From NCBI GenBank assembly GCA_017615125.1, contig JAGAAS010000014.1, positions 1 through 39,635 on the forward strand: a stretch of DNA of 39,635 nucleotides, given 5' to 3'. A program made the translations under genes and the position numbers. The notes under the pieces were generated by a model. The model was not told where the DNA came from and made no database searches. It saw only the letters and a program-made list of their open reading frames with translations. This document shows, piece by piece, positions 8,563 to 38,100 of this stretch. The stretch is from Bacteroidaceae bacterium. Its GTDB lineage: Bacteria; Bacteroidota; Bacteroidia; Bacteroidales; Bacteroidaceae. Position 1 is the stretch's first letter. Each line of letters opens with the position of its first letter.

Positions 8563-9417
8563 CTAACGAACAGTCTTCTTTTCTCCTCCGATGATATATA
8601 CGCCAGGCGCAAGTCCTTCGGTGGATGTACCATTGCGCAGGAGACGACCATCGATGCTATATACGAAATCGGGATTTTGCCTCGACAGTTCCTCAGCGGA
8701 TTCCGTTGCCTGTATGCCTGATGCTTCTTTGACCACGATAGTCCGTGATAGCCCGGGGGCGGCGTTGTCGGGTTTCTTGCCTCCGGAAAAAATGGAAATA
8801 GTAGCTGCATGGATGAGACGTGTTGACGAGGCTGCGCTGAAGGTGCTGTATTTCTCAACGCCCTCTTCAGCCTCCTCATCACCAGCAATGAAGTCTATAT
8901 GATAAGTTCCGGGCACGCCATTAGGCGTAATCTGGAACGTGATTGCGATACTGTCGCAACCGTTTCTCCAGCACGAAGCCATGTGCTTCGGCACCATTCT
9001 GTCTGTCACGAAAGCCCACCATTTGTAGCCCTGCAAAGGAGCTCCAGCGTTATAGAGGTCCGACAAATGGGCATTATACGACATATTCTGCCGACTGCTA
9101 ACCTTCGAGCCATCGCTGTAATAAACCCAATCTTCGGCATACTGTCTATGCCCTCCTCTTGGAATTGTCACCGTCCATCCATCAGGCACGCGCACAGCAG
9201 CCACAGACCAGTCAGTGGTAAAATTCTGCGTCGAGGATCCGTCGTCCGTCACCACGAGACGTGCTTCGAATGTCTCCGTACCCGTCACCTCGGTAGGAGC
9301 ATAAGTACGGATTATCTTATAACACGAAGTAACCACAGTCCCTATTATCACAATGGCGAGAGCCAGCTTAGCGACACGCAGGAGCCGGAAAGCAGTTCTT
9401 TTATCTAAATTGTTCAT
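8563..9417 (-). CDS. lipoprotein with C-terminal sorting-like motif
   Basis: A 284-aa protein from the ATG at 9417; an in-frame ATG two codons upstream (9423) is equally possible. After a positively charged start and hydrophobic stretch, GTVVTSC forms a lipobox, so export and lipidation are likely. The middle is a beta-rich domain I do not recognise (WVYYSDGSKVSS, YKWWAF). The last ~30 residues, VYSIDGRLLRNG...LAPGVYIIGGEKKTVR, resemble the type A C-terminal domain of Bacteroidetes type IX secretion cargo, also found as a bare tail in Prevotella proteins. It follows the propeller protein gene by 23 bp and is the last gene of a four-gene minus-strand unit. Confidence 0.7.
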   Translation of the reverse strand: MNNLDKRTAFRLLRVAKLALAIVIIGTVVTSCYKIIRTYAPTEVTGTETFEARLVVTDDGSSTQNFTTDWSVAAVRVPDGWTVTIPRGGHRQYAEDWVYYSDGSKVSSRQNMSYNAHLSDLYNAGAPLQGYKWWAFVTDRMVPKHMASCWRNGCDSIAITFQITPNGVPGTYHIDFIAGDEEAEEGVEKYSTFSAASSTRLIHAATISIFSGGKKPDNAAPGLSRTIVVKEASGIQATESAEELSRQNPDFVYSIDGRLLRNGTSTEGLAPGVYIIGGEKKTVR

Positions 9418-9440
9418 ATCCATAGTCTATAAGTCTGTTA

Positions 9441-10808
9441 TTACTTGTCGTCATCGGGATCATCAGCAAACAACGCTTGCCAATTGTAGACACGGAAGAA
9501 GAATGGACGATAGAAATCGGCACTTCCCGTCGAATGGAAGTTATCGTCCCAGTTTTTGGCATCGGTATTTGTGGAAAACACCAATTCACCTGAACGTGAA
9601 AGCCCCTGATGTAAGTGAGGCATATAGAAATTCTGATAGGTGCGCGTACCTTTCTTGTCAAGGACATACGGCAGTGTCCACAATTGATGACAATGCTCAA
9701 ACGGGCCCCACGGATAGCGACTGCGCATGATATAAACCTGCTTGCTGAACACATACCCTTGGGCTGTCATATAATACCAGTCACCTTCCTTGAACACCCA
9801 TGCTGTTGAGACAGAGCGCGAGCTGATGGCAGAACGATTAACCTCTTCCGTAGTCGGATAGGTATCCTGCCACGAAAAGTTACCCTTTTCGTCGGCCACA
9901 TAATACTCCCACTCACTACGCAAATCGTGTGTTTTTGAGCGAGCAACAACAGGGCTTGAAGTGTTCAGCAAGTCTCCTTCGTTCTTCTTGAACTGGTTGC
10001 ATGCATAGAGATAGGTATGTCCGTCTTCATCCTCCCACAATGTCTGTCCATAGCCAATGGGGTCTTTCTCAAAGAAATTGTGGTCAACAGAAATAATACT
10101 CAAGTAAGTGTCATCGCCGGGAGTTCCCTCAAGGCTGTAGATGGCAAGAGCACGGTTATCGCTCCGCATGAGATTCTGCGTACCATTGTAGACCCCTGCC
10201 CAGAGCACTTGAAGCTGACCGTCCACCACTGTACCGTCACCCGCCCAGTAAAGGTATTGCTGGTCGATGTCACCATTTGCAATCTGCGAAGCAGTCTTCT
10301 CCCCTTTTGGATGTCGGATATGGGTACGGGCAAAGTAATAATTCGACGAGGAGGCATTTTTCGTATTCACGAAGTCGGCCAACCAGATCAGGCTTGTGCT
10401 CTTACCTGCCGGCAGGCCATCTTCTCCTGGCAACTGCACCATGATGGTATTGCGTGGAAAGTTACAGTTTCCTCTCGCTCGGTTGCTTGCCGTCACTCTG
10501 CCGTAGAAGCTGTCGTTGAACGACCAAAAAAGGTATCCCCCAGGCAACTGAACGGTCTGCACGCCATCGCCTCCGTTCCAGCCCAGCGTGCGAGTGAACA
10601 ACTCATCGTAGAGCTTGTCCTTATAGACATACACGTTATGGTCCGAGCAGTTGTGAGGCAACCACACCAAGTTCCAGTTCTTCTCAACAACGGGAACAGG
10701 GAAGCGCACCGTATCGGCTTCCACCTCTCGTGTTAAATCGTCGCCAGCATTGATGTGTATTGCAGCCAACATCAGAAAGAGAGATAATAAAACATGTTGT
10801 TTCTTCAT
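9441..10808 (-). CDS. secreted propeller-like protein, possible glycosidase (DUF5005/DUF4185-like)
   Basis: A 455-aa exported protein with signal peptide MKKQHVLLSLFLMLAAIHINA. The repeated short strands with aromatic and acidic motifs (LFWSFNDSFYGR, YLYWAGDGTVVDGQLQVLWAG, GQTLWEDEDGHTYLYAC, WYYMTAQGYVFSKQVYIMRSRYPWGPFE) indicate a five-bladed beta-propeller of the GH43/GH183 kind. SRYPWGPFE resembles a loop often seen in GH43 enzymes, but the canonical GH43 acids are not evident. I judge it nearest to DUF5005 or DUF4185 (the latter includes GH183 D-arabinanases), with low certainty about which. It lies between an esterase gene and a lipoprotein gene in a glycan- or glycoprotein-degrading unit. 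Confidence 0.65.
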   Translation of the reverse strand: MKKQHVLLSLFLMLAAIHINAGDDLTREVEADTVRFPVPVVEKNWNLVWLPHNCSDHNVYVYKDKLYDELFTRTLGWNGGDGVQTVQLPGGYLFWSFNDSFYGRVTASNRARGNCNFPRNTIMVQLPGEDGLPAGKSTSLIWLADFVNTKNASSSNYYFARTHIRHPKGEKTASQIANGDIDQQYLYWAGDGTVVDGQLQVLWAGVYNGTQNLMRSDNRALAIYSLEGTPGDDTYLSIISVDHNFFEKDPIGYGQTLWEDEDGHTYLYACNQFKKNEGDLLNTSSPVVARSKTHDLRSEWEYYVADEKGNFSWQDTYPTTEEVNRSAISSRSVSTAWVFKEGDWYYMTAQGYVFSKQVYIMRSRYPWGPFEHCHQLWTLPYVLDKKGTRTYQNFYMPHLHQGLSRSGELVFSTNTDAKNWDDNFHSTGSADFYRPFFFRVYNWQALFADDPDDDK

Positions 10809-10971: not shown

Positions 10972-12162
10972 CTAGGGTATCATTACTTGAACCTGAGCTG
11001 AAAACATGTAAGACGGATCTCCACGCTCGCTGAGTGTTATTCTTAGAGTGCGAGCCTGACGTTGAACGGTTCCTTCAAATAGCATCACGTCGGTGCTTTC
11101 ATTAGGCTGACTTGAATCGCTATAAACAATTTTTAATGGCAAATCGAGATTCATCATCCTATCGTTGAGCGAAATAGTTAGAGCGGAATAATCGCATCGT
11201 GTAATGCGAATGGTGTTCCCATCCATTTCGGCACGTACCTCTTTTCCCCGCGACAATTCATCGGCAGGAGCGCTCAACCAATAGAAATGTTGACACAGCA
11301 CTTCCTCTTGCCGCCAAACAACACGTTTGGGATATGGATTACGCGTAAATTGAGCCATCCAGCTCACAGCTGCCGTATCAACACGATCCATCCAGTGTTC
11401 TTTGTCTGGAACAATGTGCCCCTCAAAAATGTAACCCTCAGGATCAGCACAATGGAGAGAGTCCATTTCTTTGATACGTTCTTGACATCTTACATTACGT
11501 TCATAGGCGGCATCTTTTTCTCCACACCAAACCATGAAAGGGGTATTACGAAGATTCACAAGTGAAACATCCCCGGGATGCCCAGCCATCATGGAAGCCG
11601 CAGCCCATGTGTCGGCCATACGAGGAGCTAAACGCCACACACCATCTCCTCCAGCGGAATACCCCATGATGTACACCTTATCGGGGTTGACATGAAGATG
11701 AGTGACAGCCATCCGGATAATTTCCCGATAAAAGGCATCCGACTCGGGGCGGAAATGAAGATCCCAGGTGTTGAAAGGAGCTCGAGGGCAAAGGTAGACT
11801 GCATGACGTGGGGCATAGAGCCTTTGCTGGTTATGCCACTGCTGATCGTTTACTTGAGCAGGTGCTCCCCCACCGCCATGAAGCGAGATGTAAAGCGCCA
11901 AATCCTCCTCACCAGACTTTGCAAAAATGGTCCAGGCAAGCGGCATGGTAAGCCCGTCTATTGTCAGTTTCTTAGTCCTATAAGTATCTGCTGTTGCTGC
12001 AGATACTGAATCCATCCATTCTCTTAAAACCATGTTTTCCTGCCGCGTTGACTGCTCAGCCGAAAGCGGCAATTCCTTTGATATGGACTTATTTATTGAG
12101 CATGAATGGAACAAAAGTATGGGCAGGATGACATACAGACTTACTCGTTTATTTCTTATCAT
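10972..12162 (-). CDS. lipoprotein alpha/beta-hydrolase (esterase)
   Basis: A 396-aa lipoprotein. The ATG at 12162 gives MIRNKRVSLYVILPILLFHSC, with lipobox LFHSC; longer in-frame starts would run into the upstream mannosidase gene and lack a signal. The hydrolase fold has an oxyanion-type HGGGGAP segment, the nucleophile Ser169 in GYSAGGDG, an Asp in WCGEKDAAY and a likely His in KEHWMD. The HGGGG plus GxSAGG pattern resembles PHB-depolymerase-like and acetylxylan- or feruloyl-esterase proteins. It lies 70 bp downstream of the GH92-protease fusion and probably removes acyl groups from the same substrate. Confidence 0.82.
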   Translation of the reverse strand: MIRNKRVSLYVILPILLFHSCSINKSISKELPLSAEQSTRQENMVLREWMDSVSAATADTYRTKKLTIDGLTMPLAWTIFAKSGEEDLALYISLHGGGGAPAQVNDQQWHNQQRLYAPRHAVYLCPRAPFNTWDLHFRPESDAFYREIIRMAVTHLHVNPDKVYIMGYSAGGDGVWRLAPRMADTWAAASMMAGHPGDVSLVNLRNTPFMVWCGEKDAAYERNVRCQERIKEMDSLHCADPEGYIFEGHIVPDKEHWMDRVDTAAVSWMAQFTRNPYPKRVVWRQEEVLCQHFYWLSAPADELSRGKEVRAEMDGNTIRITRCDYSALTISLNDRMMNLDLPLKIVYSDSSQPNESTDVMLFEGTVQRQARTLRITLSERGDPSYMFSAQVQVMIP

Positions 12163-12232: not shown

Positions 12233-15200
12233 TCATTCCTGCACATCACCCACGGCAAGCTGATACTCATGCCAAAGGGTGTCGATGGTGTAATCGGCTC
12301 CAAGGACATACTGCACAGCGCCATCCCAACTCCAAGGTACTACGGTAAGACATGAATGATTCATCTTTCGGATGAAGTCCTTGTCTTTGTTTTCCTTAAC
12401 CCAGTTGAAGAAATAACCCACATATCGGTAGCCGTCATGGTAGCTGCCGCCCTTAGGACGATCGGGTTCGCCATGAAAACCTCCGCAAGCCACTCGCACA
12501 GCATCGGCTGTTCCTTCCACCATCTCCCACACCGCTTTATTGGGGCCTCCATAAGGACCTATCCCTTGCGGCTCAAGCTGGAAGGCGTGAGTCAGTTCAT
12601 GTAACAGGACGCCACGTGTCTCGAAATCCACACGGGCTGTGTCGTTGTCGGCAAACGAACGTCTCACATGGTCCAAACTGTAGAAGATATTCACATAGCC
12701 ATTTCCGCCACCTTTTGCCGAAATCCCCCTATCGCGCCGGATGATATAGTCGAGCCGATGGAGCACGGGGATGCTGTCAGTAGGAGAATAATAGAGGCAT
12801 TGCATCACTTCGCGAGCCACACGACGGATGTAAGCGTCAGGATCGGGAATGATGGCATGATAGATTTTCGAGCCCTGACTCTCGGGATTAGCATCGATGA
12901 AGCAGATGTCCTCGAGATGCCTATCCCAAGCTTGATTCTCAGCAGAGACAGAGGCTGCAGGCGAGGTATACGGAGATGAGAGAGAATAGGGTTTGTCAGA
13001 AAGGGCAAGCCCCCGCTTCCGGTTCGGCTTCGAGGACATGTCAAACTCGATGACACAACCTTTCATGAGTTGTTCATGGGTGACGTAGAGTTTCGCATAC
13101 GGCTTTCCGTCGATGCGCACACTCTGCACATATCGGTTTCTGTCGCTGACACGGGGCGCTTTGATTTCCACGACGTTGCCGTTCTCGAGCGACACTTTCA
13201 TGTAAGGGAGATAAGGAGCACCCAGCACATACTGCCCTGAGCCGGGCGCAACAGGATAGAAGCCCATTGTCGAAAAGATATACCATGCCGACATCTGCCC
13301 GCAGTCGTCGTTGCCGCCCAATCCGCGAATATCATTGCGGTACATCTTGTTCATGATGGTACGCAGCCATTCCTGCGTCTTCCAGGGAGCCGAAGTCCAG
13401 GCATAGAGATACGGAACATGATGGCTTGGCTCGTTGCCGTGTACATATCCACCCACGAGGCAGTCGGCAGTGATGTCCTCGTTGTCGGCATAATACTTAG
13501 CCGGAAGATCCATGATGAAGAGCTTATCGAGTTTGTCAAGGAACTCCTTTTCACCGCCCATCTGACGTATCAGCCCGAAAACATCGTGGGGAACATGAAA
13601 CGAGAAGTTCCACGAGTTACCCTCAATGAAGCCTTCGCCATAAGTCTGGTAAGGATCGAGATCTTTCTTGAACTCTCCGTTCCTGTAGCGTGGCGATGCA
13701 AACCCGACAGACTTGTCGAACGTGTTGCGGTAGTTCAGGGCACGCGACAGGAAGCGGGAAGCCACCTGATCATTACCCACAGCACTGGCAGCTGCGTATA
13801 TAGCCCAGTCGTCATACGAATACTCCAACGTATTGGATGCCGCCGTGCCGTCTGTGTCGTAGGGAGCATAGCCCAGCCGCATATAGTCACGGACGCTGGG
13901 GAAATAGCGGTTGGTAGCCGTCTTCACCATCGCATCCAGCGCCTCCGCCTTGTCAATGTCAGCACCATTGACGATAGCATCTGCCACGACGCTCACCGCA
14001 TGATAGCCCGTCATGCACCATCCCTCGTTGCCCATCAGACTCCATACGGGAAGCATTCCCACAATGTTTTGCTGCTGGTGACGGATCATCGACTTCACCA
14101 TATCGGTATTCCTCGAAGGCTTCAGCAATCCCAGAAGAGGATGTTCAGCGCGGTAGGTGTCCCAGATGGAGAAAACCGTATAGTTGACAAAGTCGTCGGC
14201 CTTGTGGATGTTTCCGTCTACACCACGATACTGATGATCCACGTCCATATAGACAGAAGGATTGATCATCGTATGATAGAGCGACGTGTAGAGCATGGCC
14301 TTCTGATCGTCGGTACCCTGGCAGTCGATGACGGAGAGCTCCCGCTGCCAGGCGTCGTGCGTCTCGCGGCAGATGTCGTCGAACGACTTGCCGGCAGCCT
14401 CTGCCTGCAGGTTCTTCAGAGCGCCTTCAGTAGAAACCGCCGAAAGTGCCACTTTCACAACCAGTTCCTCAGCCGCCCTCCTTCCGAAGTTGAAGTAGGC
14501 AACGATGCTTCGCCCAGCCATATCCGGGAAGTTATGGTACTTGTCGAACTTGCCCCAGAATCCATTGTATTTCTCCTGTTTCATGTCCTTGTAGCCATAG
14601 CTCCTGACAGGACGTGAGAAGCTGATGGCAAAATAGGTGTAGTTTGCCCGTGCCCACCCGTTCGTGATGCGGTAGCCAGTGATGAGCGTGTCGTTCTCGA
14701 CGCGCAGCGACGCCCACAGCACTTTGCCGTCGTAGTTGTAGATGCCGTGCAGCAGGTCGACGACGATGCGGGGCTCTGTCCCCTCGGGGAAAGTATATCG
14801 GTGTACGCCTACGCGTTGTGTGGCTGTGAGCTGCGCCCTCACGCCATTGTCGGCAAGCGTCACCTCGTAGTAGCCCGCGCGTGCCGTCTCCGTGTCGTGA
14901 GAGAAGCGCTGCCGATACCCGCTGTCGGGATTGTCGCTCGTTCCTGGATTGAGTTGCAAAGCACCCGTCTGAGGCATGACGAGGATGTCGCCCAAGTCAG
15001 AATGCCCAGTGCCGCTCAGGTGCGTATGACTGAAGCCCACGATTGTGTTATCAGAGTACCTGTAGCCCGCGCAGTAATCATACACGCGAGGTTGGTAGCG
15101 TCCGTTGACGTTGTGAGGGATGGTATCTGTTTCGGGACTCAGCTGTACGATACCCATTGGCGCACACGCCCCAGGAAACGTATGTCCCATGCCGTCGGTA

Positions 15201-15304
15201 CCGATAAGGGGGTTCACATACTCTGTCACATCGGTAACAGGAGTACCCGTTGCAACCAGCGTACTCACTACAATAAAGAGAGTGAAAAATGATTTTCTTT
15301 TCAT
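12233..15304 (-). CDS. GH92 alpha-mannosidase fused to BSP-type zinc metalloprotease
   Basis: A 1023-aa exported protein with signal peptide MKRKSFFTLFIVVSTLVATG. Residues about 28-740 are a complete GH92 Ca2+-dependent exo-alpha-mannosidase: YVNPLIGTDGMGHTFPGA near the N-terminus, Glu561 in EGNSWNFSFHVPHDV (general acid region) and Asp666-Asp667 in GGNDDCGQMSAWY (base region). Residues about 790-1015 look like a plant basic secretory protein/peptidase (BSP) domain with zinc motif HELTH at 902-906 and EGTAD with Glu930 as probable third ligand region. GH92 enzymes trim alpha-mannose from N-glycans or yeast mannan; the added protease suggests attack on glycoproteins. The start at 15304 is preferred to an in-frame codon at 15319 because of the signal peptide. 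First gene of a four-gene unit with a -7 box at 15336-15343. Confidence 0.92.
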   Translation of the reverse strand: MKRKSFFTLFIVVSTLVATGTPVTDVTEYVNPLIGTDGMGHTFPGACAPMGIVQLSPETDTIPHNVNGRYQPRVYDYCAGYRYSDNTIVGFSHTHLSGTGHSDLGDILVMPQTGALQLNPGTSDNPDSGYRQRFSHDTETARAGYYEVTLADNGVRAQLTATQRVGVHRYTFPEGTEPRIVVDLLHGIYNYDGKVLWASLRVENDTLITGYRITNGWARANYTYFAISFSRPVRSYGYKDMKQEKYNGFWGKFDKYHNFPDMAGRSIVAYFNFGRRAAEELVVKVALSAVSTEGALKNLQAEAAGKSFDDICRETHDAWQRELSVIDCQGTDDQKAMLYTSLYHTMINPSVYMDVDHQYRGVDGNIHKADDFVNYTVFSIWDTYRAEHPLLGLLKPSRNTDMVKSMIRHQQQNIVGMLPVWSLMGNEGWCMTGYHAVSVVADAIVNGADIDKAEALDAMVKTATNRYFPSVRDYMRLGYAPYDTDGTAASNTLEYSYDDWAIYAAASAVGNDQVASRFLSRALNYRNTFDKSVGFASPRYRNGEFKKDLDPYQTYGEGFIEGNSWNFSFHVPHDVFGLIRQMGGEKEFLDKLDKLFIMDLPAKYYADNEDITADCLVGGYVHGNEPSHHVPYLYAWTSAPWKTQEWLRTIMNKMYRNDIRGLGGNDDCGQMSAWYIFSTMGFYPVAPGSGQYVLGAPYLPYMKVSLENGNVVEIKAPRVSDRNRYVQSVRIDGKPYAKLYVTHEQLMKGCVIEFDMSSKPNRKRGLALSDKPYSLSSPYTSPAASVSAENQAWDRHLEDICFIDANPESQGSKIYHAIIPDPDAYIRRVAREVMQCLYYSPTDSIPVLHRLDYIIRRDRGISAKGGGNGYVNIFYSLDHVRRSFADNDTARVDFETRGVLLHELTHAFQLEPQGIGPYGGPNKAVWEMVEGTADAVRVACGGFHGEPDRPKGGSYHDGYRYVGYFFNWVKENKDKDFIRKMNHSCLTVVPWSWDGAVQYVLGADYTIDTLWHEYQLAVGDVQE

Positions 15305-15484: not shown

Positions 15485-18016
15485 ATGCATCGGTATCTCT
15501 GCATAGTCATCCTGTCTATTATCAGCCTTGCTGTCAAGGCAGACCCAACGAAGACCTATTACTCCAACGTGAATGGGCTGGTAGGCGATGCGCTAAAGAC
15601 CACATTGAAAGCGATTGTGAATGACCACAACTATATCGATTATTCCTTGCTTGACGATAAATACCCGAGCATCTATACCCTCACAGACCGCGGCACAGAC
15701 TATGTTTATGACATCTTCTCTCCCGAGCTCTACACTTATGCCAATGGCGGCTTTAACAAAGAGCATGTGGTGCCCAAGAGCTGGTGGGGCGGAAAACAAG
15801 ACATCGACTGTTTCCACGACATAATCAGCGTGATACCTGCCCACTCTGCCGCTAATCAGAAGAAGAGCAACTTTCCCCCAGGCATAGTGAAAACAGCCAA
15901 CTACGACAACGGGCGCCTCCGGGTAGGCACACCTACCAACGGGCTCGGCACATCATTCTCGTGGGTATTTGAGCCATACGATGAATTTAAGGGCGATTTC
16001 GCACGCATCTATATGTATGTAGCAATGTGTTACGACGATGCTCCTTGGGCTGAAGGGGAAGGCGCCAGCGAGTTCACAGCCGAGACTTGGCCCACTATGA
16101 GCGAATGGCTTTACAAATTGTTACTAAAATGGCACAATGATGACCCTGTGAGCGAGATGGAGCGCATCGTCAACGACAGGATATACGCCGTTCAGGGTAA
16201 CCGCAATCCGTTCATTGATTACCCTGTTCTTGCCGACTACATCTGGGGCGACTGGCGCGGAACAGCCTTCGTGCTGGCTGATGCCATTCTCTACCAACAT
16301 AGCACCATCCGATATCCAGGTACCGTCAACGGAACATCAACAGAGATGCCTATTGCCCTGTCGGCAACAACCATTCCTTGCTACTCGGTAGCAGTAGGAG
16401 AAACAGTCACAAAAACTATTGACGTTCGTCTTGCCAACCTCGACAGCGATGTGAGCGTGAGTGCTACCATTGGCACAGTAACGCCAACGACAATCGCAGC
16501 CTCGGCTTCTACAGCCACACTCACATGGACCTACTCTTCCACGGAAATAGGCTCATTCGACGGTATGGTAACGCTTACATCGGGTAGCAACACGGCATAC
16601 ACACGGATATATGGCTCCGTCTATGACCCCACGCCTCAAACGGGCGATGGTGTCATCTGGGAGCTTGTCACCAAAGCCGAGGATCTTGTAGAAGGCGATG
16701 AATACCTGCTCACAAGCCGTAAAAATGGGTGCGTGGCAGGAGTACTCAATAGCGGTTACCTCACACGCATTATCAGCGATAAATTATCTTCTACAACTTC
16801 TTCGTTCACAGATACTCCTGACGGAGCACTTGTCCTCACACTCGGCTCTTCGGGCAATTACTTCACCTTTGCCAATAGAGAGGGAAAATTGCTGGGGAGT
16901 ATGAGCTCGTTAAACCTATCGTTTGGGAATAGTAATGCCTCGAAGACTTGGACCATCAGCATAAACAACAGCACACACGATATAACTATAGCCAACACCT
17001 CCTCCAACTGCGGTACTATCTATTACAATTCTGGCACTCCTCGTTTCAAGACATACACATCTACTAACCAGGTACTTCCCCAGTTGTTCCATAAGACAGG
17101 CCAGGCTACCATTCATACGCTCACTTGGATGGTTGGCGAAGAGCTCTATGCTACTACAACCGCCATCAACGGGCAGCCGCTGTCGTTCCCTGCGATTTCG
17201 CCCTCGTTTGACGGATACACCTTCATGGGCTGGACTCCTGCAGAAAATGTCTCTGACGACGGCAGCGACATCACCTACGTCACCAGCAGCAACAAGGCAA
17301 TGTCCAGCGCAACCTATCATGCTGTTTTCGCTAAAGCCAGCGGAGGCGAAAACACATCCGAAGAACTTCTTAGCGAAAACTTCGGTAGCGTCACGACAGG
17401 AAACAATACAAGTACTGGCGGGTCAAATGTTGCATGGGCAGGCAACAATGTATTCCCAACAGTAAAAAACGCATATAATGCAGGAGGTTCCGTGCGAATC
17501 GGGAAAAGTGGAGAATCAGGCTCCATCACCAGCCGGACGTTGAATGCGACGGCAGGCTCCGAAGTTACCGTCACCTTCGATGTGAAGGGATGGACAAGCG
17601 TAGAGGGAAATATCATTGTTACACTCGGCAGCACGACACAGACAGTCAGCTACACGGCAACGATGAGCAGCAGCACCTATGACACGAAGAGCGTCATCAT
17701 CCAACTTACCGACGACAACCCCACCCTCACCCTTTCCACCTCCGCGAAGCGCGCCTTCATCGACAATGTAAGCGTCTTCATCACACGCAGCCCTATTATC
17801 TATAGCAGCTTTACGCTCAATCCCGAAGCGCAAAACTTGCCGGAGGGCGACATCAACGAAGACGGTAACGTAGACGTTTCTGATGTGACAGCCCTCGTGG
17901 CGCACATCCTCGGCAGCACGCAGCACGAGGCGGCAGCCTGCGACATCAACGGCGACGGCGAGGTGAACGTGTCAGACGTGACAGCGCTGGTAGCCATCAT
18001 CCTCGCCACGCAGTAA
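15485..18016 (+). CDS. secreted endonuclease I with beta-sandwich modules and dockerin-like tail
   Basis: An 843-aa exported protein with signal peptide MHRYLCIVILSIISLAVKA. Residues 20-275 are an endonuclease I (EndA/NucM, His-Me finger) domain with His94 in KEHVVPKSWWGG and the metal-site region around NQKKSNFPPG. It cleaves DNA and possibly RNA outside the cell for nutrient gain or matrix removal. Next come an Ig-like module (about 285-380), an unassigned region, a Listeria-Bacteroides InlB-like repeat (about 540-620, FDGYTFMGWTP) and a beta-sandwich domain (about 630-775). The C-terminus (785-843) carries two EF-hand-like segments, GDINEDGNVDVSDVTALV and DINGDGEVNVSDVTALV, as in type I dockerins. 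The plain Bacteroidetes nuclease is shorter; the extra modules suggest surface retention. Confidence 0.9.
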   Translation: MHRYLCIVILSIISLAVKADPTKTYYSNVNGLVGDALKTTLKAIVNDHNYIDYSLLDDKYPSIYTLTDRGTDYVYDIFSPELYTYANGGFNKEHVVPKSWWGGKQDIDCFHDIISVIPAHSAANQKKSNFPPGIVKTANYDNGRLRVGTPTNGLGTSFSWVFEPYDEFKGDFARIYMYVAMCYDDAPWAEGEGASEFTAETWPTMSEWLYKLLLKWHNDDPVSEMERIVNDRIYAVQGNRNPFIDYPVLADYIWGDWRGTAFVLADAILYQHSTIRYPGTVNGTSTEMPIALSATTIPCYSVAVGETVTKTIDVRLANLDSDVSVSATIGTVTPTTIAASASTATLTWTYSSTEIGSFDGMVTLTSGSNTAYTRIYGSVYDPTPQTGDGVIWELVTKAEDLVEGDEYLLTSRKNGCVAGVLNSGYLTRIISDKLSSTTSSFTDTPDGALVLTLGSSGNYFTFANREGKLLGSMSSLNLSFGNSNASKTWTISINNSTHDITIANTSSNCGTIYYNSGTPRFKTYTSTNQVLPQLFHKTGQATIHTLTWMVGEELYATTTAINGQPLSFPAISPSFDGYTFMGWTPAENVSDDGSDITYVTSSNKAMSSATYHAVFAKASGGENTSEELLSENFGSVTTGNNTSTGGSNVAWAGNNVFPTVKNAYNAGGSVRIGKSGESGSITSRTLNATAGSEVTVTFDVKGWTSVEGNIIVTLGSTTQTVSYTATMSSSTYDTKSVIIQLTDDNPTLTLSTSAKRAFIDNVSVFITRSPIIYSSFTLNPEAQNLPEGDINEDGNVDVSDVTALVAHILGSTQHEAAACDINGDGEVNVSDVTALVAIILATQ

Positions 18017-21521: not shown

Positions 21522-24500
21522 ATGAAGAAGACATTGCTCTTTAGCATCCTGATGGTAGCGGCATGCACCTTGTCAGTTGCCCAAGACGACATCAGCGGGA
21601 AACTGTCCATCACCACGCAGATGTTCTTGGATGAACGAGACGGAAAGATTGAAATCGGAGAAGAGACAAGTTCCACCAAAGCTCCAAGCGGAGAAATCAT
21701 CATCGGGAAGTGGGACCGACGCAAGAGGAACGACGACCGATTTTTCGCCTCTCCTGACACGTTGGACGGACAAGCATATATATCGGTATTCCTTCGCCTG
21801 AACGATACGAACAGCACCAGCGAACTGGAATCCAGAGGAACCATCGTACAGTGCACCTTCGACAAAGGGCTCGTTACTGCCCTCGTGCCCGTCGACTCCA
21901 TTGAGTCGGTAGCCCGAATAGCGAATGTCAGGCGCATCAACGTGGCGTCGCTCATGCAGGCTGCCACCGACGAGGCACGCCGAAAGACAAACGTCGACGA
22001 TGCTCTCACGCAGTCAGCCGACGCTATGGCAGCAGGCCTCTCATCCAAGTATGACGGCACGGGCGTTGTGCTTGGCGTTATCGACACAGGCATTGACTTT
22101 CAGCACATTGCCTTCAAGGATGCCAACGGTAACTCGCGCATCAAGCGCGCCTACGTCTACAACGGCTCGAAAGCCAACGAGTACACATCCATTACCAGCA
22201 GCAGCCCCACAACCGACGACAAGACGGCCGATCACGGCACGCACACCAGCTCCACAGCAGGCGGATCGAGCGTGAAAGTCAGCGGTAACAACGTTACTGT
22301 CACCAACGATCACGCCAATGCCACCTACGGAGGAATGGCTCCTGGCGCAGATCTGTACCTTGCAGGCATCAAGGACTTGTCGAGCACCTATATGGCCAAC
22401 GCCTTCAAGAAAATCTGCGACTATGCCGACGGCGTGGGCAAGCCTGTTGTCATAAGCAATAGTTGGGGTTCGCAGTTCGGCCCCCACGACGGCACGGGCG
22501 ACTTTGCCGATGTCACAGCCAAGTACTTTACCGACTCCAAGCCCAATCACATTTGCCTCTTCGCCGCATCCAACGACGGAGGCAAAAGCAAGGACAACGA
22601 AGGAGGCGGCTACCACGTGAGCGGAACAGCATCCAGCTCCAAGCCCCTCGGTAGCATCCTGCGAAGCGCTACCTATATCAATACTGATGCCGGATACTAC
22701 TATTACGGCATCATCGCCAATGCCTGGGCACGCTCCAGCAACGTCAGCAGCATGGCATGCAAGATTTTCGTGCTGGATGCAAGCACGGGAGCCGTGAAGA
22801 CTTCCGTCAGCGTCACCCCCACTACTAGCGGAGCCTCTGTGAGCGGGCTTAGCAGCTACTTCAGCGGCACGCTCTATGCTTACAAGGATTACGTCACTTC
22901 CAGCAAGACGCAAATTCTGCTCTACACCTCAGGACTGACGTCGAAGGGCACCAACACGACAACGAAGAACGGAGAGACCTACTACACCAGCAAGTACACC
23001 CTCGCCGTACAGTTCTATCCCACCAGCGGCAGCTGCATCGTTGATGCCTGGGGAGGCACCTACGGCTACTTCACCAACCACCTCACTACCAGCGGACAGA
23101 CTTGGACGGCAGGCTCGGACGATATGTGCGTGAGCGACGAGGCCACCGACCCGAACGTCATCTCCATCGGTGCCTACGTGACAAAGAACCGCACCACAAG
23201 CTATAGCGGCAACACGACAACCTTCAGCGAATACACGTTGGGCGACATCGCCTACTTCTCGAGCTACGCTACAGCCGAGCAGAGCCCCACGGGGAAGCAG
23301 TACCCTTGGATCTGTGCTCCCGGCGCACGCCTCGTTGCAGGCATCAACCACAATCATACCGCATCGGTTGACGACTACAGCTACTACGGCGACAGCTACT
23401 CGTCGGACCTTGTCGTCAACAGTTCAACCAACCCCTACGCTGCGATGGAGGGCACTTCTATGGCTACCCCCGTTGCCGCAGGCATCGTAGCCCTTTGGCT
23501 GCAGGCTGCCACAGAAGCGGGCAAGACGCTTACGACAAGCGAGGTGAAGGAGATCATGAAAGAGACTGCCATCAACGACAGCTACACCACCACAGGACCC
23601 AACGCCTCGCACTTCGGCAACGGGAAGATCGATGCCCTCACAGGCATCCAGAGCATCTTAGGAACCTCTTCCTCCACGCCCCGCATCACCGCCACTGCCA
23701 CAGAGCTGAGCTTCGAAACAACGCTTAACACCCCTGTTACGCAGACGTTCACTGTAACAGGTATCAATCTTACCGATAAGGTAAACGTTTCCGTGTCTGG
23801 TACGGACTTCAGCACCGATATAACCAGCATTTCAGCCAACGATGCCGCTGCAGGCAAGGTTGTCACCATCACCTTCTGTCCCACGACAGCAGGAAGTAAA
23901 ACGGGAACCGTCACCCTCAGCAGCACCGATGCCGAGCCCGTCACCATCACCTTGACAGGCATAGTGCATGCGCCCGCCATCAACGTCTCATCTTCACAGA
24001 TAGACTTCACTTCTTGCTACGAGACGCTTACCTATACCCAGCCCGTCACCGTCAGCGGCAACTATCTGACGGACGACATTACCGTCACTCTTACTGACGA
24101 GAGCGGAATGTTCAGCATATCGCAGACTGTCATTGCCCAGACAGGAGGAGCGGCAACTGCAGAGATTGTCATCACCTACGCCCCGACAGCTCCTGGCACT
24201 CATACTGCCGCTATTGTCCTCAGCAGCACCAATGCTGAGAGCACGACGATAAATGTCTCAGGCACCGCAGCTGCTGCGACTCCCTCCTTGAGCGTTAATC
24301 CTACGACACTCGCCTTCTCCACGCATGTTGATGAAATGGAAGGAAAGACGTTCGAGGTTAGCGGAATGTTCGTCACCGACGACGTCGCTATCACCCTTGC
24401 CGATGCCAGTGGCGTATTCAGTGTCAACCCCACCACCCTCACTGCTACCAGCGTAGCAGAAGGAAAGGCCGTCACCGTCACCTTCCTATCGGATGCCGAA

Positions 24501-25694
24501 GGAACCTACACGGGCACGGTCACGCTCACCAGTGGCACCGCCACTGCTACCGTCTTGCTCACAGCAGAGGCTACAGACGGAGGAACAGCTTCTGACAGCT
24601 ACCTGAACATACGGAAGTACAGCACTATGGGCGAAGCCGGATGGACCACAAGCTATCAGTACACCGAGTACGAAGCCGACGACGTGGCTTGGCTCACCTT
24701 CCCCGCCTACGATGCCTACAAGTCCGACAACAGTCAAGTCTGGCTCACTACCAGCGTAGCATCAACCACCAACGGAAGCTGGAACGCAACGGACATCTTC
24801 CTCGGAAGCAGCGCCTATGGTTGCTCCAACATCACATCCTACAGCTCGTCCATGTGGGGAGGCGGTTCAAGCACTACTACCGAGACATTCTACGTCACGG
24901 GGTGTACCGCTGTAAAAGTCTACGGGAAGAACAGCAACTCCAATGGTTTCTTCTCGTCAAGCACATCCACCACTATCGATGTCTTCAAATGCACCGAGAA
25001 AGCCGACGGCACGCTTTCGGCAGCCTCAAGCGCAAGCAAGTCAGACTCCAACTCATCAAAGAACGCTACGTTTACCCTCTCGTGCACAGGGCTCGACAAA
25101 TCGGATATCTATAAGGTTGTTGTCACGGCAAATCGTGCCAACCTCTACGAGATTGCCTTCCAGGCACCGCTTCCCACGCCCGTCATCACAGCTAGTGCGA
25201 GTGAGATAGCCCTTGAGACTACCGTCGGCACACCTGTCGTACAGTCGTTCGTCGTGTCAGGTTCCAAGTTGCGCGATGCAGTTGGCATTGCGCTGACAGA
25301 CGAGGACAACGTCTTTGATGTTGACTTAACCAATGTTTCTGCCGATGATGCTACCGCAGGAAAAGAAGTCACCATCACCTTTACTCCCACAGCAGAAGGT
25401 TCCTACAGCGGCATGCTTACGCTCACGAGCTCGAAAGCAGAAACCTTCACCGTCACGCTCACTGGCACGGCTACTATCCCCCATACCGACATTGTGGGAG
25501 ATGCCAACGACGACGGAGAACTCAACGTTTCCGACATCACCCTTATCGTTGCCTATATTCTCGGCAATGTGCCCGACAACAACAAGCTATCGCACAAGCA
25601 ACTTGATGTGAACGGCGACGGCATTGTCGACGTCAGCGATGTGACAGCACTCGTTGAGAGAGTTCTCGGAATTGACACTCAATCGGAAGAGTGA
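21522..25694 (+). CDS. secreted subtilisin-like (S8) protease with Ig-like repeats and dockerin-like tail
   Basis: A 1390-aa exported protein with signal peptide MKKTLLFSILMVAACTLSVA and a propeptide-like region to about residue 165. The S8 triad is Asp188 (GVIDTGID), His238 (DHGTHTSS) and Ser646 (GTSMATP), with oxyanion Asn351 (AASNDGG). The 300-residue stretch between Asn351 and Ser646 holds an inserted domain. Residues about 720-1025 contain three repeats of a ~95-aa beta-sandwich (starts PRITATATELSFETT, APAINVSSSQIDF, PSLSVNPTTLAFST); a fourth lies at about 1215-1315, after an unassigned module of ~170 aa. The C-terminus (1325-1390) has two dockerin-like EF-hand segments (GDANDDGELNVSDI, DVNGDGIVDVSDVTALV). 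It degrades extracellular protein; the tail may attach it to a surface partner. Confidence 0.93.
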   Translation: MKKTLLFSILMVAACTLSVAQDDISGKLSITTQMFLDERDGKIEIGEETSSTKAPSGEIIIGKWDRRKRNDDRFFASPDTLDGQAYISVFLRLNDTNSTSELESRGTIVQCTFDKGLVTALVPVDSIESVARIANVRRINVASLMQAATDEARRKTNVDDALTQSADAMAAGLSSKYDGTGVVLGVIDTGIDFQHIAFKDANGNSRIKRAYVYNGSKANEYTSITSSSPTTDDKTADHGTHTSSTAGGSSVKVSGNNVTVTNDHANATYGGMAPGADLYLAGIKDLSSTYMANAFKKICDYADGVGKPVVISNSWGSQFGPHDGTGDFADVTAKYFTDSKPNHICLFAASNDGGKSKDNEGGGYHVSGTASSSKPLGSILRSATYINTDAGYYYYGIIANAWARSSNVSSMACKIFVLDASTGAVKTSVSVTPTTSGASVSGLSSYFSGTLYAYKDYVTSSKTQILLYTSGLTSKGTNTTTKNGETYYTSKYTLAVQFYPTSGSCIVDAWGGTYGYFTNHLTTSGQTWTAGSDDMCVSDEATDPNVISIGAYVTKNRTTSYSGNTTTFSEYTLGDIAYFSSYATAEQSPTGKQYPWICAPGARLVAGINHNHTASVDDYSYYGDSYSSDLVVNSSTNPYAAMEGTSMATPVAAGIVALWLQAATEAGKTLTTSEVKEIMKETAINDSYTTTGPNASHFGNGKIDALTGIQSILGTSSSTPRITATATELSFETTLNTPVTQTFTVTGINLTDKVNVSVSGTDFSTDITSISANDAAAGKVVTITFCPTTAGSKTGTVTLSSTDAEPVTITLTGIVHAPAINVSSSQIDFTSCYETLTYTQPVTVSGNYLTDDITVTLTDESGMFSISQTVIAQTGGAATAEIVITYAPTAPGTHTAAIVLSSTNAESTTINVSGTAAAATPSLSVNPTTLAFSTHVDEMEGKTFEVSGMFVTDDVAITLADASGVFSVNPTTLTATSVAEGKAVTVTFLSDAEGTYTGTVTLTSGTATATVLLTAEATDGGTASDSYLNIRKYSTMGEAGWTTSYQYTEYEADDVAWLTFPAYDAYKSDNSQVWLTTSVASTTNGSWNATDIFLGSSAYGCSNITSYSSSMWGGGSSTTTETFYVTGCTAVKVYGKNSNSNGFFSSSTSTTIDVFKCTEKADGTLSAASSASKSDSNSSKNATFTLSCTGLDKSDIYKVVVTANRANLYEIAFQAPLPTPVITASASEIALETTVGTPVVQSFVVSGSKLRDAVGIALTDEDNVFDVDLTNVSADDATAGKEVTITFTPTAEGSYSGMLTLTSSKAETFTVTLTGTATIPHTDIVGDANDDGELNVSDITLIVAYILGNVPDNNKLSHKQLDVNGDGIVDVSDVTALVERVLGIDTQSEE

Positions 25695-32187: not shown

Positions 32188-35100
32188 TTATTGGTTGAGG
32201 ATGATGCTTACGAGTGCCGTCACGTCGGAAACGTTCACTACACCGTCGTTGTTCAAGTCGGCAGCCTTGCGCTGGCTCTCCGTGAAACTGCTGGCGTTTC
32301 CGAGGATGATGCTTACGAGAGCCGTGACATCCGTCACGTTGATTGCGCCATCGCCACTCACATCGCCTGGCTCAAGCTCTGTTCCGCCACCCTCTTCAAC
32401 GATTTCGCTGAAGGCGCCTTGTGTCCACCAGTCGCTTGCAGTATAAGCATCCTTACATCCCGCAGGAACATAGAGGGTACGCGTCTGATCGGTATCAAGT
32501 GGATCAAAGACATAATATATACTACTTTCATCATATTGCATGATAGGCAACTCTACGGGCGTCGTCATGTTTGCATAAACCGACTGCAATGCCAAGCAAC
32601 CACCAAATGCGATAGGATTAATGGAAGTGATGCCCTCAGGTAAGGTGATAGAGGTAATGCCACTCTCGCAGAATGCCCATTGCCCAATAGAGGTGACAGT
32701 ATTAGGAATATTAACCCCCGTAAGGTTTTCACAAACAGCAAAGGAAACATCCCCAATAGCTGTTACAGTATAGGTCACATCTTCGTGAACGACAGTTTCA
32801 GGAATAGTTACCGTACCTTCTGTATCAACTGGTATCGCAGGAACAGGATAACCGTTGCTGCCAAAACTTCCATACGTCTGAACGGTATAATTTCCTTCTT
32901 CAGCACTTGTTACCTTGAAGGTCATCGGTATACCATCCACATTTACTGTGAAGATGACTGGCTTCTGCGACATTCCCAAGATCTCGATGAAATAATTACT
33001 CCATGCGGATGCCTGATATGCTTCTACACTCTCATCGGGCACAAAGAGGGTAGCATCTTTTGCTAATGATAGGCTATATTCAGCAAGATCGGGAGGAGTT
33101 GTTGCATATACAGTCATTTTAGTAATGGCAGAACAGCAATCAAATGCATAACCACCAATACTAGTAATAGTACTTGGGAGGGTGACCTCTGTCAAGCTTA
33201 AATCCAAGTCATATGCGTCAAATGACTCATCTCCAATTGCGGTAACGGTATAAGTAACGCCATTGTACTCCACAGACTCGGGAATGGTGAGAGGACCGCT
33301 GTAGTCTGACGGTATCGCCGTAACAGCATAGTCATCATTCCAATATCCATATGTCTGAACGGTATTCTCTCCATTAGTCTTGAAGGTCATATTCACGCCA
33401 TTTACAGTTACGGTAAACTTCAATGCCATATCGTCAATCATCCCGAAACAGCTCCAACTACTTTTCCAATAATCATCCACACAACCGATAGGCACATAAA
33501 GAGTCGCCTCCGCAACACCGGAATTGAAAGAATATTCATCAATTGTCGGAGGTGTGGTGCTGTAGACATAAGCACTTTGCAGGTTCTCAATCCCCTGGAA
33601 CGCATAAGACCCGATAACCCAAACAGAAGCAGGTATTATCACTACAGAGACACCTTGTACATCATTCGTATTGAAAGCATTCTTGCCAATCTTTGTCACG
33701 GTATAGGTGTATGTTTGGCCATCTATTTCTCGTGTTACCGTTCCTGGAATGGTAAGCGTATCAGGAACGATTGCTAATGGTGACAGAGCTGTTTCTGTAC
33801 CGTTACCCACTTGAACCGTTCCTTTACCAATAATCTTATAGGTCACATTTTCGTATTCGAACCAGACGCTTTCATCTGCCATCTCTACGATATTATCACT
33901 ACTGAAATAGTTAATCCAAGCGCTGTTCTCGAAATCTGATTTACAACCATAGGGAACATAGAGTTTTGCCCCTTCTGGGAGATTTGTGAACGCCGAACTG
34001 CTGAGCGAAGGAGGTGTCTCTTCGTAACAATAAACGCGACTTAGAGACGAGCAATTATAAAACTCGGAATAACCTAACGACCTCAATCCTCTTGGCAATT
34101 TGACTTCTTCAAGACTTTCACAATTTCGGAACGTATAGCCTTGTAACTCTGTAATGCCCTCGCCAATTGTTGCCGATGTCAAAGAGGAACAGCCGTCAAA
34201 TGCATCCCATCCTAAACTGGTCACATTATCAGGAATTACGACTGTCTCTAGCGCACAACTCTGAAATGCGTAACTATCTATCGATGAGAATTTCTCCGTT
34301 TCCGGGAAGGACACAGAAGTGATACCACTTCCATAGAATGCCCCGCCATAGATACCGACCACGTCATATCCTTTTACTGTGTCAGGGATTGTAATCAGGC
34401 CAGAGTAACTATTGTCGATTGCGCAATTCCAATTTTCATCGCCCACCTTCACAGCCTTTTCTAACCGACTCACAATCGTGAACTTCATTTCGACATCTTC
34501 GACTGTCTTTTTATATATTACATTTGGAGCGATCTGCACGAACTTAGCATACTTTTGTTCCCAATCATCGCCATCATTCGACACCCACATTTGATATGAA
34601 CCATAGTAACCATAATCAAGATCAAGTGTTACGAAATACGGTCCATCACAATATGTATATTGAGTCTTGTAGTCATTCAAGTCAGATTCTACTGCCCCAA
34701 CATTTTCCAAATAGAAATAGGTCACACCCCAAAGAGCAGCATCGGCACCATTAAGCGTTAGCTCAGAACCTTCATGGATGTTGAGATATCCCGCATAGCC
34801 TACCGGGCCGTCTGGAGTGACTACCTTCTGAGGTGTCTCGCTCTTTATATATCTATTGTGGCCAATCGCCTTCTTCGGTGTATATGATTCAAAGAAGTAA
34901 TGAAGAGCATACGTAGGAGCATTGACATTGACTGCACAATTCTGCACATCTACACTTCCTCGATATACATAGATACCATCGCCCTTCGTACTACGGTTGT
35001 TATTGAGGGTAAGTGAAGGAAGGCTTCCACCTGTCTGCTCATCGTCGTTGAGAATAATCAGAGAGGTCCAACTGCTTGTATCGTTATTGCCTTTGGCCGT

Positions 35101-38100
35101 TCCGACAGAGATAACGTTCTTGGCATTCGTTGCGGTAATGGTATTCGAACCCTTCACACGGATAAAGAAGTAATTATACGTATTCACTTCGATAGCAGGA
35201 CCATTCCCTGTATAGCTGATATTGGCACCATTGAGTGTCAGCACGGGGTAACCGTAGTCATATAGGGTTTCTTCATCGCCCTTTGCGTCCGACTTGGAAG
35301 ACTTAGGACCATTTTCAAGTACTTCCCACGAGAGGACAGCCTTTCCTTCTTGGTCAAGGGCAATTGTGCCATCTGTACTATTCAAGAAGTCTGCTCTCGT
35401 AATATCTCTTCCAAATATAGTAATAATAGGTTTAAGTCCAAATCGAACCATTGTGGCATAATCGTAATAGTCACTGCTTTCGACACCCTTTATTGGTCCA
35501 TAAGATTGATTCTCTTTTATATAGGATCCAACATAGCTATTAAATACGGCATCCTCGGGATCAATTTCCAAAACTATACAATTTGAATCATCATTGCTCT
35601 CGGGAGCAACTGACAAACCATAGACAGCCGCCTCATCTCCACTGAATTTCGCAGACTGCACATTATTTATAACCAGTTGACCAATATAATAAGAACCAAC
35701 AGACTTCGTATTATCAGCAGCCTTATATACTTCCCCGCCGCCACCTGATGTACCGCTGACATTGTTGATATAGAATCCACATTCCGTTCCAGCTATATCC
35801 ACTGAAGTCAAATTCAAGATTTGTGCTGCGCCATCGTAATTGTAAATACCATATTGTGCCGAGTTCGGAATCGTCAGCGTAGCGGCATTTCCTTCATTAA
35901 CAATTATCAAGGCTGTTCCATCCCAATCATAACCACTGAGCGTACCCATAGAGATGGATGCAGCACCCGTGCCTTGTACGGTGTTGTCGCCTTCTACGAG
36001 AATGATGAAAGTGTTCAAACTATTTACCTCTATGGCTGGACCATTATTATTTATAAGAGATGCGTTTGTCAATATCAGCGTTGCTGCCTGAGCAGTCTCT
36101 TCAGTCACATCGGTTTCGCCTGGGTATCCCCAACTGAAAGCTACAGAGCCGCCATCGCCAAGCAAATCGTTCAGATTTGAATAGTCGTTGACATCCTGCC
36201 CCAAGAAGCTTACCTTAGGCATAGGAGCACCTTCTGGTTGAATAGTGATGGATTTGACGTAAGCCCGATAAGAATCGTTCACGCCAAGATTGATACCATA
36301 GATATAGGCCCATGAATCGTCAGCAACATCGTATTCGTATTCCCACTCGTTGCTATTGGTCAGACGCTTTTCGGCATTTCCAAAAACCCTGATACCCAAA
36401 ATGCTCTGAGAGTCATATAAGCTGCCCTCAACTGTAATAACGCCCTTCCCTGAAGGTACTTTGAAGCAGAGCAAGCCTCCGTAGTCGACACTTGCTACCA
36501 TTTCACTTACGCCTTCACTACCGTTAGCAGCATAAGCAGTCCGATAGGCAGCGCCGTAGTTGGGAGTAAGCAGCTCGGGACTGTTTCGCAGCATTAATCC
36601 TCCGTAGTAACTATCATAGTATTCGTTACTGCTCAGCGACACGTAGAGCTTGTTATCAGCTATCGTCATAGCAGACTGCTCGTATTCTTCATTATAGCTA
36701 TATAGCTCATCTTGCGTCAAATTAATCTTTGTAACTCCTGTCGAGGGGGTACCAACGGTGTTGTAGGAGTTATTGAGTGTCTGATCGCCACACAACGTTT
36801 CGCTTTTGCTAATCACCTTAACGGTACTCGTAAGTTCATCAAACACATCGTCGCCTGGATAATGGAACACGATGTTGGCTTCACCAGCGGCTTTCACATT
36901 ATACCAGACTACATTGTCACCATTGGAAGCTGTTCCTATCCTCGTAATTTCCACAATATCCTCATTTGTGCTTGAGAAATGTTCAAGGGCTACGGGTAAA
37001 CGGAATCGATCATTATACACAGTAAGTGAATACTCACCGGGCTCATAGTGCTTTTGGGTTCCTGAGATGTAAGCAACCCATGCCGGGTTCCATACAGGTT
37101 GAGTCGCAAGCTCTTGATGGTAAGTCCGATCACTACCAAGCGATATATGATTGCTCCACGCCTTGAATCCATTCCAACTGACATCACTGCCACAGTAGGC
37201 GTCAATGATGGACTGATTCACTCTCAGATAAACTTTCCTATTGTCATAATTCTTCCATCTGAAGTACTGGTTTGTACTAGTTTCATACCATGTTACGTTT
37301 GCATCACGGTGAAGGAAGTATACACTCATAACTCGATTGTCATCGCCAGTTCCATTCGATTCATCAGCAAAAATGTCGCTAGGAGATTTTCCAGCAGGAG
37401 AACCTAGTTGTTTTACCGAAGAGGGAATAACTACGTAATTCTGAAGATAAGAAAAGTTTTTCAAGGCTTCAGTTCCGAGATGAGTATATGTCTTTGGAAT
37501 CCTAATATCTTCAACTCCATAAAAACTACAATAATATGTAGCAAAAGCACCTAAACCTATCACAGTATAAATGTTTCCGTGACTGTCCTCGACTTTGGAC
37601 GGTAAGGTCAGTCGCATATTGCTATACGCTGTGGGAGTGCTAAGCTTCTCAAAAGCTCCACTATAATGAATACCCCACTGCGAAGTATACCCATGCCAAC
37701 ATGGATTCTCATCAAGATTATCGGTACTTGTGTAGTCGCCGCCATAGATAATGGCTTTGCGCTCACCATCAACAGAAATGTAAACAATACGAGCTGCATA
37801 ACGGGCTCCGACGGCACCTGTTGTCTTATCCACAGCCTCTACCAAGGCAAGTCCTCTATCGCCGACTTTTGCCATTGTATCAACAACCAGACGGGCACAG
37901 GGATTAACATCTGTTTCTTGACTTGTATAGAAAAACCACGATGTGAGTTTGTTCTTGAATGCCAAATATATTTCTTCCGAGACATGAATCCTTAGCGTTA
38001 CATTTGGTAAATTCCCGAAAAGAGTTTCAACTTGGTTTGTAAAAGTAGGACTATTAAAGACTGTAGTCTTCCAACTTGTGATATTAAAATACACATCCTC

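Follow-up and report, generated by a model that had tools for sequence, protein, structure and literature searches.

Does one gene of a Bacteroidaceae bacterium join a GH92 α-mannosidase to a zinc peptidase of the basic secretory protein (BSP) type, and what might the two do together? The question is raised by positions 12233..15304 of a 39,635-nucleotide stretch of DNA (referred to here as the window) from a relative of rumen and gut species, the genome of which is 87% complete with 4% contamination. The reading that we favour, at a probability of about 0.6, is that the gene encodes an exported two-enzyme polypeptide, derived from a GH92-BSP-GH92 operon, in which a GH92 mannosidase and a BSP zinc peptidase would act on the same mannosylated glycopeptides.

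Sequence analysis of the fusion gene

The gene (P0001) is one unbroken open reading frame of 1023 amino acids on the minus strand. It runs from an ATG start codon at 15304-15302 to a stop codon that ends at 12233, without an internal stop or frame break. The original prediction had described one exported polypeptide here without giving its strand; the single reading frame and the signal sequence were borne out. A type-I-like signal sequence lacking a lipobox Cys was recognized by inspection and with a simple script at approximately residues 1–23 (15236..15304, minus strand); the exported protein is most likely periplasmic. Pfam assigned a GH92 N-terminal domain (PF17678, residues 29–288, 14441..15220, minus strand, 263 bits), a GH92 catalytic domain (PF07971, residues 294–757, 13034..14425, minus strand, 568 bits) and a BSP domain (PF04450, residues 804–1014, 12263..12895, minus strand) with a gluzincin-like predicted fold. 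The PF04450 search, which had been suggested with the original prediction, gave a significant and nearly full-length match (E = 2.7e-41; 142 bits, cut-off 23.8; profile positions 10–207 of 207). The NCBIfam GH92 model also scored above its cut-off, and the M60 family was absent from the Pfam matches of the protein at E ≤ 0.001. The interdomain linker, approximately residues 778–795 (12920..12973, minus strand), varies in length and sequence among relatives.

An esterase-like gene with a lipoprotein-like start (10972..12162, minus strand; matches below curated cut-offs) lies downstream in the same orientation. Its probable ATG, placed by eye, is about 70 bp past the fusion stop, and the two genes form a possible operon. 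Beyond it are the genes for a DUF5005 protein (9441..10808, minus strand, Pfam) and for a 286-residue protein without a Pfam match (8563..9423, minus strand), a relative of which occupies the same place in locus L039. In L039 the fusion is followed by an extra GH92 and then by relatives of the esterase-like, DUF5005 and 286-residue genes in the same order. No SusC/D or other mannosidase was found among the window ORFs scanned, and the window copy lies outside any obvious PUL; the whole genome has eight GH92 matches. Pfam also placed Dockerin_1 matches at the ends of an endonuclease I (15485-18016, plus strand), a subtilase (21522-25694, plus strand) and a BspA-type LRR protein of 2156 residues (32188-38658, minus strand). 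Three such proteins on one Bacteroidota contig struck us as unusual.

The GH92 domain

The solved GH92 chains BT3965 (PDB entry 6f91), BT3130 (6f8z) and 7zgm, the last of which we take to be the Bacteroides massiliensis plant-N-glycan α-1,3-mannosidase, matched the window protein with 639, 551 and 530 bits, respectively. All three are two-domain GH92 enzymes whose acid, base and other aligned active-site residues, as inspected, agree with those of the window protein. The similarity is only moderate, however, and the chains match window residues 24–779 but not the BSP part. In the available part of PMC5930347 the acid and base of BT3965 are given as Glu531 and Asp633; these align with E561 (codon 13622..13624, minus strand) and D667 (codon 13304..13306, minus strand). 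The complete GH92 unit of the original prediction, with Glu561 and Asp666/667, therefore stands for both Pfam domains and for E561, whereas the base is D667 and not D666. E561 and D667 are unchanged in all 30 fused proteins aligned, one of which is the window protein, and the GH92 part is a predicted Ca-dependent exo-α-mannosidase with intact catalytic residues.

Transfer of the α-1,4 specificity of BT3965 to the window GH92 was not supported, because BT3965 is the ortholog of the downstream GH92 gene of L125, which belongs to another clade, and because the window protein lacks the seven-residue insert of BT3965 before the acid. NnGH92 and other multi-domain GH92 enzymes also carry appended domains, but in the excerpts of PMC10167667 at hand these are CBM-like, CBM32 and four-helix-bundle domains with no peptidase among them.

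The BSP domain

The C-terminal motifs HELTH (residues 902–906, 12587..12601, minus strand) and EGTAD (residues 930–934, 12503..12517, minus strand) were found exactly where they had been predicted. H902, E903, H906, E930 and Y959 (12428..12430, minus strand) are invariant in the 99 covering rows of an alignment of 100 BSP domains. E930 is likely to be the third zinc ligand and Y959 is a candidate catalytic Tyr. Among the 30 aligned fused proteins, again with the window protein counted, H902, E903, H906, E930 and D934 are unchanged in all. A degenerate peptidase was rejected as regards the zinc site, the residues of which are invariant in the 99 rows.

The predicted model of the BSP domain (pLDDT 95.6) resembles M1 and M30 gluzincins and, as in clan MA, has HExxH on one helix and the Glu on the next. 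M1 aminopeptidases, LTA4 hydrolase and M30 lugdulysin share this predicted fold and arrangement, but with only 6–13% identity among the matches listed. M1 aminopeptidases have the spacing HExxH-x18-E and the exopeptidase motif GxMEN. The BSP domain has 23 residues between H906 and E930 (HExxH-x23-E). An invariant Glu, such as GxMEN would supply, was not seen along its edge strand: the strand ahead of HELTH reads GYVNIFYS in the window protein, and S, R, G or E takes the place of the N in other rows (correspondence judged by eye). A search of the PDB with the BSP part gave a weak sequence match to 6ya1 (E = 0.0028), and a PHROGs search gave no match. A shared fold by itself shows no function; the domain is a putative gluzincin-type zinc peptidase.

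Plant basic secretory proteins of the PR-17 family (PRp27 and Hv-PR17) belong to PF04450 and share the HExxH motif with the fusion. They differ in being small secreted defence proteins, and the available parts of PMC9322406 and PMC11327054 describe this defence family without a substrate. The former states, citing older work, that barley Hv-PR17 cleaved neither casein nor gelatin, and in the latter, which is a review, PR17 appears as a putative aminopeptidase.

Recurrence of the fusion and linkage of BSP to GH92

PF04450 scored above its cut-off in eight of 19 genomes of the genus, counting that of the window, and in seven of the eight the match lies in an ORF of more than 1000 residues. In the family as a whole, 57 of 399 genomes drawn had such a match. 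Whole-protein scans of named genomes gave 199 relatives, of which the best 80 were classified. GH92 and BSP share one ORF in the same order in 33 of these 80 (three truncated at contig ends and one, L050, split by an in-frame stop), a further 12 (one at a contig end) have BSP in its own gene next to GH92, and in the remaining 35 no BSP was found within a flank of at most 6 kb. The recurrence of the domain order, for which a search had been proposed, is thus confirmed. The in-frame stop of L050 (L050:7432-7434) divides the ORF of this MAG and marks a pseudogene or a sequencing error. Most named fused loci are MAGs, many of them from ruminants; L043 is Xylanibacter brevis ATCC 19188, an isolate genome by title. 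A second fused copy in the window genome (L138:2-2776), cut off at the end of contig C75, is 80% identical over residues 25–896. An assembly join or frameshift artefact was rejected: the fusion recurs in many genomes, that isolate included, and both domains are constrained in relatives. In other classes, ORFs of about 1000–1200 residues (L158-L175) have weak PF04450 matches, mostly at about profile positions 97–151, and are possibly of another zincin family.

For the linkage count, BSP copies were gathered by PF04450 alone and were therefore not selected for GH92. The window's family, sampled through the genus and family genomes described above, yielded 60 copies, of which the 57 scoring above 240 bits with a purpose-built profile were counted; the three set aside are the fused copy at the edge of contig C75 and two larger second BSPs that share their stretch with a GH92 without adjoining it. 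The 57 strong copies comprise 24 GH92-BSP fusions, 18 genes directly beside GH92 (on both sides in 15 and on one side in three) and 15 that are neither, one of these cut by a contig end. The original prediction held that BSP domains are normally separate; in this bacterial family that statement fails. GH92 was found elsewhere in all 17 genomes searched, including the 14 with complete non-adjacent BSP copies. Other families provided 13 BSP copies: one reverse-order fusion (L205), three adjacent to GH92, three with a GH92 farther off in the stretch read and six with none there. As a rough control, 26 of 49 BSP genes versus 34 of 430 other genes were fused to GH92 or lay next to it (Fisher p ~1e-13) in stretches L119-L137 and L176-L205 only, which had been chosen around BSP, include all of the non-adjacent strong copies and part of the adjacent ones, and contain non-independent genes of the same operons. 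G loci and named loci share contigs under two identifiers, and their counts were not summed.

Eleven standalone BSPs (L119, L120, L131, L132, L179, L182, L184, L185, L187, L188 and L190) form a separate clade in which none lies beside GH92; L179 and L187 have a GH92 farther off. Among the members listed by the signal test, six were classed as type-I-like.

The GH92-BSP-GH92 cassette

In Bacteroides-type genomes, such as that of Bacteroides sp. 519 (L114), the gene order is GH92-A, BSP, GH92-B (the A and B labels were coined in this analysis). Dysgonomonas hofstadii (L109) and Hoylesella oralis (L052) share this order. By a simple and crude pattern test, 18 of 27 separate BSPs adjoining GH92 have a lipobox-like signal, and 35 fused proteins gave 30 type-I-like, two lipobox-like and three unclear signals. 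Neighbours were identified with Pfam on selected genes only. SusD lies near the cassette in L126, L128, L133 and L194, the last with the order SusD, BSP and then three GH92. Further neighbours are GH38 (L126), GH125 (L203), α-L-fucosidase (L133), GH20 (L128), GH123 (L198) and a calpain-like protease (L125). In another family of the same class, the reverse-order BSP-GH92 fusion (L205:7486-10449) is immediately preceded by the gene of a TonB receptor and one of the SusD cluster. Two loci with a small BSP carry a second, larger one (L128:1685-2890, 402 residues; L133:3375-4769, 465 residues), with a long N-terminal part and a lipobox-like signal.

GH92-B of L125 is the ortholog of BT3965 (1637 bits, ungapped across 751 residues), which points to the BT3962-BT3965 region of B. 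thetaiotaomicron. Unlike in the window protein, BSP has a gene of its own in the relatives analysed; by the numbering of the genes, BT3964 would be the B. thetaiotaomicron BSP gene. According to the accessible part of PMC5930347, BT3965 belongs to a 'PUL of unknown function' that is induced by mannose-containing glycans and by human milk oligosaccharides, and in that of PMC12834350 BT_3962 and BT_3963 are entered as GH92 enzymes whose activity is unknown. BT3527-BT3530, another candidate for the B. thetaiotaomicron operon, was dropped; the literature searched on BT3527, BT3528 and BT3530 gave nothing on a BSP gene.

Phylogenetic analysis

A GH92 tree of 142 rows was built with FastTree. All 34 fused GH92s are in clade A (92 rows), as are 20 of the 22 upstream genes, and clade B (22 rows) holds 19 of 23 downstream genes. 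Sister to clade A are two GH92s from other families, that of the L205 reverse fusion and that next to BSP in L198; the one adjoining BSP in L203 belongs to a different clade which is not sister to A. In 35 of the 92 rows of clade A there is no BSP nearby, and the GH92-A enzyme can therefore do without BSP. The fused state needs nine changes on this tree, six of them forced, with gains not distinguished from losses.

The BSP tree comprised 100 distinct domains after short or weak pieces were excluded. The GH92-BSP state needs five changes on it, four forced by starred branches; one of the five may be L193, which is cut by a contig end. With 83 rows (17 long-branch, truncated or other-family rows excluded) four changes are needed. 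L032 and L058 were counted as one because their BSP domains are identical and their contigs equally long (31849). The main fused clade has 35 rows and a support of 90, and is not starred. A single origin was rejected when all 40 fused rows were held together (p-AU 0.0009, quick tree; L080 is represented by a single genome).

Purifying selection acts on both domains. The dN/dS values were 0.038–0.077 for BSP (three of nine pairs with measurable dS), 0.028–0.148 for GH92 (four of nine) and 0.07–0.28 for the linker (five of nine). These figures are from relatives, because dS was saturated for both domains in every pair with the window protein.

Discussion

The GH92-BSP fusion is common in this group and is part of a recurrent cassette. 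In related bacteria the two occur repeatedly, either side by side or fused, and BSP therefore probably acts on sugar-coated proteins or peptides. In the reading that we favour, BSP would have merged into one reading frame with the upstream GH92 of an ancestral GH92-BSP-GH92 operon. The GH92 domain would remove terminal α-mannose from mannosylated glycopeptides and the BSP gluzincin-type zinc peptidase would cleave the peptide portion of these glycopeptides, in whichever order, presumably in the periplasm; in relatives, SusC/D-type systems would take up such glycopeptides from a eukaryotic glycoprotein or mannoprotein. The observations behind this reading are the domains, the intact catalytic residues, the predicted fold, the repeated fusion, the gene linkage and the purifying selection. 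Against it stand the 15 of 57 strong BSP copies not beside GH92, among them the clade of 11, the six of 13 copies of other families with no GH92 in the stretch, the 35 of 92 clade A rows with no BSP nearby, the GH92 of another clade that adjoins BSP in L203, the lack of SusC/D and of any other mannosidase among the window ORFs scanned, and the casein and gelatin left uncut by the plant BSP Hv-PR17 (PMC9322406, in part). Of the coupling of demannosylation to proteolysis that had been proposed, joint action is supported by the repeated fusion, both domain orders and operon linkage, whereas proteolysis is a prediction, and Hv-PR17 is reported not to cleave casein or gelatin. The proposed target, an N-glycosylated or mannan-bearing protein, is one candidate among others.

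That BSP is an active general peptidase or aminopeptidase, with fusion and linkage coupling only its expression and stoichiometry to α-mannoside degradation, is rather unlikely. The fold is nearest to M1 aminopeptidases and a BSP clade without GH92 neighbours exists, but the x23 spacing is unlike the x18 of M1, no invariant Glu was found on the strand where GxMEN was sought, and repeated fusion in both orders favours a shared substrate. The literature, as far as its available parts go, divides between the putative aminopeptidase of the review (PMC11327054) and the inactivity of Hv-PR17 on general protein substrates (PMC9322406). A structural or substrate-docking role for BSP here, in place of catalysis, appears improbable: its zinc-site residues are invariant in the 99 covering rows and the domain also occurs encoded by a gene of its own, in many cases with a lipoprotein signal, although the plant homologues in these sources are without proven catalysis and another GH92 requires its accessory domains for integrity (excerpts of PMC10167667).

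The source of the glycopeptides is a further point. Bacteroidota make mannose-bearing O-glycans, and the window copy lies outside any obvious PUL, as might be expected if the enzyme trimmed and cut the mannose-containing O-glycoproteins of its own or neighbouring Bacteroidota rather than eukaryotic ones. In relatives, however, the cassettes are accompanied by SusD and other genes of glycan degradation, and mannose-containing glycans as well as human milk oligosaccharides induce the PUL of BT3965 (PMC5930347, in part); we consider a bacterial target improbable.

No report of a GH92-BSP pairing was found among the papers listed in searches of the open-access literature. If the joint action of mannosidase and peptidase on glycopeptides holds, a glycoprotein or glycopeptide breakdown role is suggested for the BT3965-type PUL, and the fusion is a possible single-chain tool for trimming and cutting mannosylated proteins. 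Repeated fusion and linkage to GH92 point to mannosylated glycopeptides as the substrate of PF04450/PR-17, and bacterial BSPs would be tractable enzymes for probing this plant defence family. A bolder and doubtful extension is that BSP/PR-17 is a glycan-dependent peptidase family that cleaves peptides solely at mannosylated residues (N- or O-linked) or beside them. Such a family would account for the repeated tie to exo-α-mannosidases as well as for the failure of Hv-PR17 on casein and gelatin, a failure that argues against a general protease but would allow a glycan-dependent one. If it is true, the natural target of plant PR-17 would be the mannoproteins of fungi, oomycetes or other microbes.
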